DNA from: Arcobacter sp.
GTDB taxonomy: Bacteria; Campylobacterota; Campylobacteria; Campylobacterales; Arcobacteraceae
NCBI GenBank assembly: GCA_002869535.1
Contig: PKUK01000008.1
Span: 302,541 to 366,540 of the forward strand
Direction: 5' to 3'
DNA: 64,000 nt
Of the stretch, positions 1 to 54,950 are shown piece by piece (within the stretch, counting starts at the first letter, position 1; the number at the start of each line of letters is the position of its first letter). The translations under genes were made by a program, and so were the position numbers. Below the pieces are notes generated by a model, which worked only from the letters and a program-made list of their open reading frames with translations, was not told the origin of the DNA and searched no databases.

Positions 1-1101
1 AAAGGTAAAGATTTTGTTTGGCCAGATGATGCAACAAATGAAATTGCTAGAACTATTAAAACTATTGGATTAACTGGTTGGACTGCTGATAGATTGAAAA
101 AACATCAAGAAAATTGGCATATGTTTGATGAAGTATCTGGTAGAGGATATGGTGAAATGACTGGTGAGTACTATGGTTTACCATGGCCTTGTTGGACAAC
201 ATCACACTCTGGAAGCCCTGTTTTATATAATATAAACAGATCAGTAAAAGAAGGTGGTATGGGATTTAGGAATAGATTTGGATTGGAACATGATGGTGTA
301 GATTTACTAGCAGGTAAAGGAAGTGCTCCAAAAGATTCAAATAATAAAGATGGATATCCTGAAATTACAAAAGATAATATTGAAGCAGTATTAAAAATCA
401 AGTTAACTGAGGCAGAGAAATCTAAAATTGGTAAAAACTGGAAAGTTGATACGTCAAATATTATTGCTGAAAAATGTATGGAGGCAGGTATTGCTCCTTA
501 TGGAAATGCAAAAGCAAGAGCAAAAGTATGGACATTTGCTGATCCGATTCCAAAACATAGAGAGCCATTACACTCTCCAAGAACGGATTTGACAAAAGAG
601 TATCCAAGTTTTGCAGATAAAAAAGATCACTATAGAGTTGATACAAGATATATCTCTGAGCAAACTAAACAAGACTGGGCAAAAGATTTCCCAATCAATT
701 TAGTTACAGGAAGACTTGTAAACTTAAATGGTGCTGGTATGGAAAATAGAGCAAGTAAATATCTTGCGAAATTAACTCCAGAAATGTTCTGTGATATTCA
801 TCCAGACTTAGCTGGAACATACGGAATTAGAGATGGTTCAATGATGTGGATTCATTCACCTCAAGGAACTAAAATAAAAGTAAAAGCACACTATTCTTTC
901 TCTGTTAGTAATGACAGAGTATTTATTCCAATTCACTTTGCGGGTGTAATGGAAGGTGAAAGCTTATTACATAAATATCCTGATGGAACTGCTCCTTATG
1001 CGACAGGTGAAAGTGCAAACACTGTTACTAACTACGGTTATGACATAGTTACACAAATCCCTGAAACAAAAGGTGGTTTATGTCAGATTTCAAGAGCGTA
1101 G
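1..1101 (+). CDS. fdhA: Formate dehydrogenase catalytic subunit FdhA, C-terminal part (5' end outside window)
   Basis: The frame is open from the first base, so this is the last 366 residues of a larger protein; no start lies in the window. The segment ends with the molybdopterin-dinucleotide-binding domain of the DMSO reductase superfamily, recognisable from INLVTGRLVNLNGAGMENR and the following GIRDGSMMWIHSPQG stretch. The family oxidises formate to CO2 at a bis-pterin Mo or W centre on the periplasmic face. The iron-sulfur and cytochrome b subunits follow immediately, as in epsilonproteobacterial fdhABC operons. The active-site Cys/Sec position is upstream and cannot be judged. Assignment is confident from sequence and context. 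Confidence 0.95.
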   Translation, partial: KGKDFVWPDDATNEIARTIKTIGLTGWTADRLKKHQENWHMFDEVSGRGYGEMTGEYYGLPWPCWTTSHSGSPVLYNINRSVKEGGMGFRNRFGLEHDGVDLLAGKGSAPKDSNNKDGYPEITKDNIEAVLKIKLTEAEKSKIGKNWKVDTSNIIAEKCMEAGIAPYGNAKARAKVWTFADPIPKHREPLHSPRTDLTKEYPSFADKKDHYRVDTRYISEQTKQDWAKDFPINLVTGRLVNLNGAGMENRASKYLAKLTPEMFCDIHPDLAGTYGIRDGSMMWIHSPQGTKIKVKAHYSFSVSNDRVFIPIHFAGVMEGESLLHKYPDGTAPYATGESANTVTNYGYDIVTQIPETKGGLCQISRA

Positions 1102-16080: not shown

Positions 16081-16171
16081 AAATTTCCTTTTATAATTAG
16101 ATGTAGACTTTAAGCTTTTTCTTCTTATATTTTGATAAATTTATTAATATAAAAAATTTCAAGGATATACA

Positions 16172-16426
16172 ATGAATATAGAAATATATTACTGCGGTAT
16201 GTGAAATTATCTACCACAAGCTTCTAGGTTAGAAGAGGAATTAAAGGATGATTTTCCAGATGCAAAAATAAATCTTATAAAAGGTAGCGGCGGCACGTTC
16301 ATAGTAGAAGTTGATAAAAAAGAGATTTTTAGTAAACTAGCTTTACCAAAAGAGAAAAGAAGATTTCCAAAGGATAATGAAATCAGTGACAAAATAAAAA
16401 GCCTTATTACTAATGAAGAGTTTTAA
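16172..16426 (+). CDS. SelW-like (SelT/SelW/SelH, Rdx family) selenoprotein with in-frame UGA
   Basis: Reading from the ATG at 16172 through TGA at 16202-16204 as selenocysteine gives an 84-residue protein. It starts MNIEIYYCGMU and continues NYLPQASRLEEELKDDFPDA, IKGSGGTFIVEV and EIFSKLALPKEKRRFP. This is the thioredoxin-like Rdx fold with CxxU (Cys8, Sec11) after the first beta strand, as in SelW. The match to the family continues for 73 residues beyond the TGA, so the frame is conserved rather than terminated. AAGGATATACA precedes the ATG, a SECIS-like hairpin lies just after the TGA, and a perfect terminator overlaps the final stop. Standard gene finders that stop at TGA would miss it. 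The biochemical role is probably thiol redox; its partner is unknown. Confidence 0.88.
16221..16235 (+). promoter_or_regulatory. Bacterial SECIS-like hairpin for Sec insertion
   Basis: CTTCTA pairs with TAGAAG to give a 6-bp stem with a GGT loop (16227-16229). The stem begins 16 bases after the TGA and the loop guanines lie 22 bases after it. Bacterial SECIS elements bind SelB inside the coding region just downstream of UGA, and G-rich apical loops such as the GGUC of E. coli fdhF are characteristic. The stem is short and A/U-rich. Confidence 0.6.
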
Positions 16427-16436
16427 CTCTTCATTA
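16411..16436. terminator. Bidirectional terminator after the selenoprotein gene
   Basis: Twelve-base perfect arms TAATGAAGAGTT and AACTCTTCATTA around TT, then TTTT on the plus strand. It overlaps the selenoprotein stop and lies next to the stop of the convergent aldolase-like gene. Confidence 0.8.
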
Positions 16437-19586: not shown

Positions 19587-20798
19587 CTATTCAAAATTTA
19601 ATAAATCTTTTGCTTGAACCATATCCTTATCCCCACGTCCTGATAAGTTTACAATTACTGTTTTACCTTTAAATTTCTCTTTTGCTTTTTTCAAATATGC
19701 TATGGCATGTGAACTTTCAAAAGCTGGAATAATTCCCTCTTTTCTACTTAACCATACAAAAGCATCTAAGGCCTCTTTATCTGTTACTGAATCATAGTCT
19801 ACACTCTTATTTACCATATGAAAAGAGTGTTCAGGACCAATTCCTGGGTAATCTAATCCAGCACTAAAAGAGTGAGCTTCTGTTACTTGTCCATCTTCAT
19901 CTTGAAGTAAATATGAGCATTGTCCATGTAAAATACCAGGAGTTCCTTTCTCTAAAGAACAACCATGCTTATTGGTATCAATTCCTAGTCCACCTGCTTC
20001 AATACCTATACAAGTTACCTCTTCATCTTCTAAGAAGTGTGAAAAAATACCAATAGCATTAGACCCACCGCCAATACAAGCCAATACATAATCAGGTAAT
20101 CTTCCATCTTTTTGTAAAATTTGACGTCTTGCTTCCCAACCAATAACTGCTTGGAAATCTCTAACCATCATTGGGTATGGGTGAGGACCTGCAACTGTTC
20201 CTATTATATAAAAAGTATCTCTAGCGTTTGTAACCCAGTATCTAATTGCATCATTCATAGCATCTTTTAATGTTTTACTTCCTGATTAAACAGAGACAAC
20301 TTTTGCACCTAAAAGTTTCATTCTAAATACATTTAGTTCTTGTCTTTCAACATCTTTTGCACCCATAAATACTGTACACTCTAAACCCATAAGTGCAGCA
20401 ATAGTTGCAGTTGCAACCCCATGTTGACCAGCACCAGTTTCAGCTATAACTTTTGTTTTACCAAGTTTTTTAGCAAAAAGTCCTTGAGCAATTACATTAT
20501 TTACTTTATGTGCACCCGTATGGTTTAAATCTTCTCTTTTTAAATATACTTTTGCCCCTATCTCATCAGAGATATTTTTAGCATGATATAAAGGTGTATC
20601 TCTTCCAACATACTCTTTTAGAAGTTCATTTACCTCTTCCCAAAACTCTTTATCAAATCTATATTTTTCATACTGTTTTTCAAGGTCAAGTAGAATAGGC
20701 ATCAAAGTTTCTGGAACATACCTTCCCCCAAACTCTCCAAAATGACCATTTTCATCTGGATCAAATTTACTTCTTTTTGGAATATAAACTTCTCTCAT
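19587..20798 (-). pseudogene. trpB: Tryptophan synthase beta subunit TrpB interrupted by an in-frame TAA
   Basis: The 403-codon frame is complete in length for TrpB (about 400), but codon 171 is TAA (plus-strand 20286-20288). The break falls between GAKVVSV and [13 protein letters not shown], which are contiguous in TrpB. Before the stop, the PLP lysine region HTGAHKVNN and ETGAGQHG are intact; after it, the GGGSNAIG phosphate loop and the C-terminus NLSGRGDKD are intact. There is no frameshift. TrpB condenses indole with serine to make tryptophan. The residue replaced is at a variable position, so the original codon is unknown (GAA, CAA and AAA are one base away). The cause is a recent nonsense mutation or sequence error. 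Confidence 0.88.
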
Positions 20799-41568: not shown

Positions 41569-42288
<720 letters not shown>

Positions 42289-53973: not shown

Positions 53974-54950
53974 TTTTGGTAAATTGTATACTTTGGTACT
54001 AACTTATTTGGTCTATATGACATTTTCACTTTTTTTAGGTTTTCAAATCCCATATCATCACCAACATTTATATATTCGATATCAAACTTTTCTTTTAATA
54101 TTTTAGTAAACTCTCTAAAGATAAACTGAGCACAACCAAGAATCTCAAAATCTGTTTTTTCTATAATAACGCTTGCAGTTTGTTCATTTATTTGCTCTCC
54201 AACTGTAAAGCCTTTTAACTCATCATTTATATAAATAACAAGTCCTATAATATCCAAGTTATCATAATCATTTATCAATCTTTTGATGGCAAATCTCTCA
54301 AAATATATCCCATCCATAAAAATTTCTACTTCTTCTTTTGGCATATATGTTGTTCTATCTTTTACCCATTTATTAAATAAGTTTAATACTTCAGTTCCAT
54401 GTTTTTCTTTATTTAAAATTTCTATTCTATGATCTGGATAAATTTTCTTAAATTTATTTATCTCATTTCTTTTTGATTTATAAGAGTCACCCTTTAATTC
54501 AATTAAATCTTCAACTTTATAAATATAATCTACAAGTTTTTTCTCAATAATAAAGTCTTTTAGCATCTCATATACTAAAGTACCCTCTTCCAAATAATCA
54601 ACAAACCCTTCTAATAACTCTTCATGTACATACTCTATTTTTGAATAGTTTCTATTACTGTTGTGTGCATTCATTATTTCAAAACATTGAAGCATGGCAT
54701 CATAGGTATTATCTTTTTTTCCAATTGGAGGTAAAAGCATAGATAATTCACCAGAATTTAAAATAAATAGACAAAAGGTATCATTTACTATTGCATAAAA
54801 CCCAGTAGCTGTTTATAGCCAAATATAGTTACCTGCAAATGTGTAATCACTTACGTCTACATTGATGAGTTCTAAATACTCAGTCATAGTATCACGTGCT
54901 TTTAAATCAAAGTGTTTTAAAGTGTAGTTGCTTATTGTCAAAGTTGACAT
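53970..54950 (-). pseudogene. DUF2156-family protein (GNAT-like) interrupted by an in-frame TAA
   Basis: An open frame begins at ATG 54740, but the family N-terminus lies upstream in the same frame: ATG at 54950 with AAGGA before it, then LKHFDLKARDTMTEYLEL and DYTFAGNYIWL, then TAA (54813-54815), then TATGFYAIVNDTFCLFIL joining MLLPPIGKK. DUF2156 proteins, related to the lysyl-phosphatidylglycerol synthase C-terminal domain, typically have this N-terminal 'DYTFA..YIW' segment, so the protein was continuous. One base change (for example CAA to TAA) explains the stop. A truncated product could restart at 54740. Function unknown. Confidence 0.8.

Follow-up and report, generated by a model that had tools for sequence, protein, structure and literature searches.

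The question raised by this locus is whether a short reading frame interrupted by a TGA codon encodes a SelW-like selenoprotein. Direct reading of the window (the whole 64,000-nucleotide stretch of Arcobacter sp. DNA analysed here) gave an ORF of 84 codons at 16172-16426 on the forward strand, hereafter selW, which starts with an ATG at 16172 and ends with a TAA stop at 16424-16426. Its codon 11 is a TGA (16202-16204, +) that falls within the motif CGMU (C8-G-M-U11) and would be read as selenocysteine. With this TGA translated as U, the product is MNIEIYYCGMUNYLPQASRLEEELKDDFPDAKINLIKGSGGTFIVEVDKKEIFSKLALPKEKRRFPKDNEISDKIKSLITNEEF. A ribosome binding site, AAGGA, lies at 16161-16165 (+), 6 nt 5' of the ATG, and 15 of the 16 aligned selW copies described below have a box containing AGG before their ATG. 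At the other end, a terminator-like hairpin (16411-16436, +; 11 pairs followed by TTTT) overlaps the end of the ORF, with one such hairpin observed against 0.1 expected from shuffles. The standard ORF list contained no forward ORF of at least 60 codons at the locus, only a 61-codon antisense frame, so a conventional gene call would lose selW. The ORF with its TGA and CGMU motif, the ribosome binding site, the terminator and the loss of the gene in conventional calling had all been proposed in a preliminary description of this DNA, and all of them were borne out. A search of the whole window at Rfam gathering thresholds gave no match, and no tRNA genes were found within the window.

The read-through product belongs to the Rdx family. 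It matched Pfam Rdx (3.4e-18, residues 2-76, 66 bits against a cut-off of 22.6), TIGR02174 (55.9 bits against 34.2) and NCBIfam NF041051 (96 bits against 88), the last of which is a curated Campylobacterota equivalog named "SelT/SelW/SelH family (seleno)protein" (SelTWH_Campy). The matches to Pfam Rdx and NF041051 both span the TGA. The 73 residues after the TGA had been described earlier as family-like, with a comparison to Rdx proteins as the proposed check, and in that comparison the cut-offs of all three models were exceeded. A profile search also returned the Rdx-family PDB entries 2obk, 2fa8, 3dex and 2npb (E-values from 1.7e-12 to 2e-6); here, 2npb is selenoprotein W and 2obk is a bacterial Rdx protein, both of the same family as selW, while the best-matching chain, 3dex, has Cys at the position where selW has Sec. 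The CxxC or CxxU motif that Rdx proteins carry after the first beta strand is present as CGMU, and C8 and U11 are, together with 15 others, the invariant columns among the 16 aligned selW sequences. The stop codon itself is all that would speak for a chance open frame, or for a peptide of 10 codons with unrelated sequence behind it; against this, the family matches that cross the TGA have E-values of 1e-15 to 1e-27, and identity to the relatives is 40-73% in an alignment over the full protein, which leaves such a reading a practically negligible probability.

The TGA is conserved along with the protein. Within a set of 100 relatives, selW was found in 16 genomes (source genome included), with one in-frame TGA in every match, and in all 16 aligned copies (the source and 15 relatives) the TGA occupies the same column. 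In a phylum sample of 298 Campylobacterota genomes, an Rdx match was present in 95, of which 94 carried at least one copy bearing a TGA, a count in which the codon position was not verified singly; in the 95th genome, the match starts after the motif. The orthologues thus keep an in-frame UGA, as is expected of a selenoprotein gene, and the relatives, which had been named as the place to look for a TGC or TGG codon, retain TGA. A second Rdx copy without a stop was found in two genomes of the phylum sample. Tandem Rdx gene pairs were seen in three genomes of one genus (G330:C1:1266854-1267444, G230:C1:1241581-1242186 and G184:C1:1224553-1225188); in two of these pairs, one copy has a TGA and the other has no stop, which may represent a Sec/Cys duplicate pair.

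The same data bear on the possibility of an ordinary CxxC Rdx gene whose TGA arose by mutation or by a sequencing error. The assembly contains many suspected single-base errors (see below), and a change from TGC to TGA would be of the same class; because assembly errors could turn TGC or GGA into TGA, the selW TGA was judged from the relatives. Homologues retrieved by Cys-coding patterns do exist in Nitrospirota-type MAGs. A pattern scan of contigs returned only distant homologues (of the Nitrospirota type, and one Caulobacteraceae MAG), since its pattern specified Cys in place of Sec. However, an identical TGA in 15/15 aligned relatives and in most family members of the phylum, as well as a covarying SECIS-like hairpin 3' of the TGA, make an error or mutation extremely improbable. 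As judged from the alignment, assembly error is ruled out as the source of the selW TGA by its conservation in 15 other genomes.

This hairpin was not among the earlier claims on the locus and provides additional support for the selenoprotein reading. RNAalifold, applied to the 60 nt from the TGA in the 16 sequences, predicted a single hairpin with 5 bp and a 5-nt loop, located 16 nt after the TGA. In the window, this SECIS-type hairpin lies at 16221-16235 (+), with the stem CUUCU/AGAAG, the loop AGGUU and the loop G at 16227. All 80 cells of the stem alignment pair (100%, 16 sequences), double-sided compensatory changes occur at three of the five pairs, and none of 500 shuffles reached the covariation score; moreover, the covariation was lost when the pairing partners were slid. 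All 16 sequences have G as the second base of the loop. In L021 and L035, pairing is preserved despite amino-acid changes on both sides of the stem, in which Ser and Glu are replaced by Ala and Ala, or by Phe and Lys. A SECIS hairpin directly downstream of the UGA, another feature expected of a bacterial selenoprotein gene, is therefore present. The SECIS of Epsilonproteobacteria has been described as a hairpin of 5 or 6 bp with an invariant loop G (PMC4607533). Both that element and the one in selW have a 5-bp hairpin a few nucleotides after the UGA and an invariant loop G, with no noteworthy difference between them; by its predicted structure, the window hairpin is the element described there for epsilonproteobacterial selenoproteins.

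Decoding of the UGA would require selA, selB, selC and selD, which the preliminary description expected in this genome. All four were found, 10-15 kb upstream of the window on the same contig, although selB as assembled has a premature TAA. ARAGORN identified a tRNA-Sec with the anticodon TCA (tRNA-SeC) at G000:C5:291233-291327. The Rfam tRNA-Sec model gave 42.1 bits on the same gene, below its cut-off of 47, and this score is in keeping with the 7-bp acceptor stem reported for these tRNA-Sec (PMC4607533). The selB match was above cut-off, and selD has an in-frame TGA of its own. In addition, a formate dehydrogenase gene, fdhA, whose 3' part occupies positions 1-1101 (+) of the window, carries a Sec TGA at codon 187 in the DNA before the window (L038, about 16837). 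Thus, selA, selC and selD occur in the same genome as selW. Among the 100 relatives, selA was present in 15 of the 16 genomes with selW and in 38 of the 84 without it (Fisher p = 0.0003, which is only indicative for related genomes); the exception that has selW without selA is G018, a genome that is 74% complete.

The premature stop in selB raises the question of whether the UGA can be decoded in the sequenced isolate. The TAA is at codon 33 (L038 5194-5196, -; G000:C5 about 289736), 13 kb upstream of the window, in the context ...DDTN*EKERGITID..., and in G001, a complete genome from a second species of the genus, a Glu codon, GAA, stands at this position. The first long ORF after this TAA would give a 540-residue protein lacking the N-terminal region with the GTPase P-loop motif. 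In both congeners, G001 and G002, selB is intact. If the stop were real, UGA decoding would fail in the sequenced isolate.

The selB stop was therefore viewed against the frequency of such stops in the assembly, by comparing 475.8 kb (G000:C5:264541-740340, which includes the window) with the syntenic part of G001. In the 330 shared ORFs, the source genome has 37 in-frame stops, as against nine in the reciprocal comparison, and six of those nine lie no further in than codon 35 and may be due simply to start choice. Of the 37 stops, 27 stand where G001 has a Glu, Ser or Gly codon, and these are mostly explained by G:C to T:A changes. The affected genes include ispH (which has no second copy), glmS (twice), hemA, infB, prfB, secF, a mutS-like gene and trpB. 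Several of these genes are essential in bacteria.

Premature stops and a changed start codon are seen in the window too. The trpB gene has a premature TAA at codon 171 (20286-20288, -), where G001 has the Gln codon CAA; a conserved gene of 326 residues is split by a TAA at codon 46 (54813-54815, -), where G001 has the Ser codon TCA; and the start of pyrH reads ATT at 41581, where G001 has the start Met, which may mean that the start codon was lost or that the sequence is wrong here. Two other causes of the stops were considered and rejected. With in-frame TAA codons in both selB and trpB, TAA might have been a sense codon, but the residues opposite the stops include Glu, Ser, Gly, Lys, Gln and others, and TAG and TGA stops occur too. 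Loss of mutY was also considered: no full mutY was found above cut-off in the source genome, but the same holds for G001, where there is no such excess of stops.

On these data, it might be argued that selW is a true selenoprotein gene that the isolate cannot decode, selB having been broken by a real nonsense mutation in a mutator lineage or during a recent loss of Sec decoding, so that the UGA acts as a stop. The TAA at selB codon 33, the higher number of in-frame stops than in G001 (37 versus 9, with 27 at Glu, Ser or Gly codons) and the presence of a mutS-like gene among those with stops all fit this explanation. However, the stops also fall in ispH (single copy), glmS (twice), hemA, infB, prfB and secF, and pyrH opens with ATT; losing this whole set of genes would hardly be compatible with life, which makes sequence errors likelier. 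Furthermore, selA, selC, selD and the selenoprotein genes show no decay. Overall, we consider a broken selB unlikely. Most of the in-frame stops are likely consensus errors, with a mutator lineage less likely, and we do not read them as a specific loss of selenocysteine decoding; the reason is that the loss of so many essential functions is implausible in a living cell. On the same grounds, selB is expected to be intact in the organism, its TAA being most likely one of the many assembly errors. Slightly less likely still is that the isolate is a real hypermutated lineage caught just after SelB loss, in which the UGAs of selW, fdhA and selD are intact but undecodable; if true, such a SelB-less isolate would offer a snapshot of the first step in losing selenocysteine. 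In either case, it should be kept in mind that this assembly carries many premature stops, false or real, including the one in selB.

The best explanation is that the source, an Arcobacter-like member of the Campylobacterota, encodes in selW a selenoprotein of the SelW type (Rdx family). The UGA at codon 11 would be decoded as selenocysteine by tRNA-Sec and SelB, the latter being positioned by the short SECIS hairpin 16 nt downstream, inside the coding sequence; for the source organism itself, we infer this decoding from the relatives and the family. The predicted product is a small protein with a thioredoxin-like fold, in which a CxxU redox motif follows the first beta strand; together with the family, this motif suggests that the protein is probably a thiol/selenol oxidoreductase. 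We regard this explanation as a whole as very probable. The original proposal that the TGA is read as selenocysteine is thus supported by the family match, the conservation of the TGA, the covariation of the SECIS hairpin and the presence of the Sec genes. The locus also illustrates that raw sequence can reveal a selenoprotein gene which standard calling would break in two at its UGA.

Bacteria are known to have a family of SelW-like selenoproteins (PMC1794560), and SelW selenoproteins missed by annotation were reported in Epsilonproteobacteria in 2015 (PMC4607533). Thus, selW is genuine, but for this bacterial group the literature already covers the family, its motif, the type of SECIS and the gap in annotation; what is added here is a well-supported SelW member with a covarying SECIS, which opens no new biology. 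The closest comparison is with Campylobacter jejuni, in which full-length SelW across the UGA was detected by Ribo-seq and peptides (PMC11955535). Like selW in the window, C. jejuni SelW (CJnc60) and NF041051 have about 80 residues, a CxxU motif close to the N-terminus, a single UGA and Sec machinery in the genome. In contrast to C. jejuni SelW, for which translation past the UGA has been demonstrated (PMC11955535), the window selW comes from a different genus and is known from sequence alone, and the selB of its source assembly has a premature stop.
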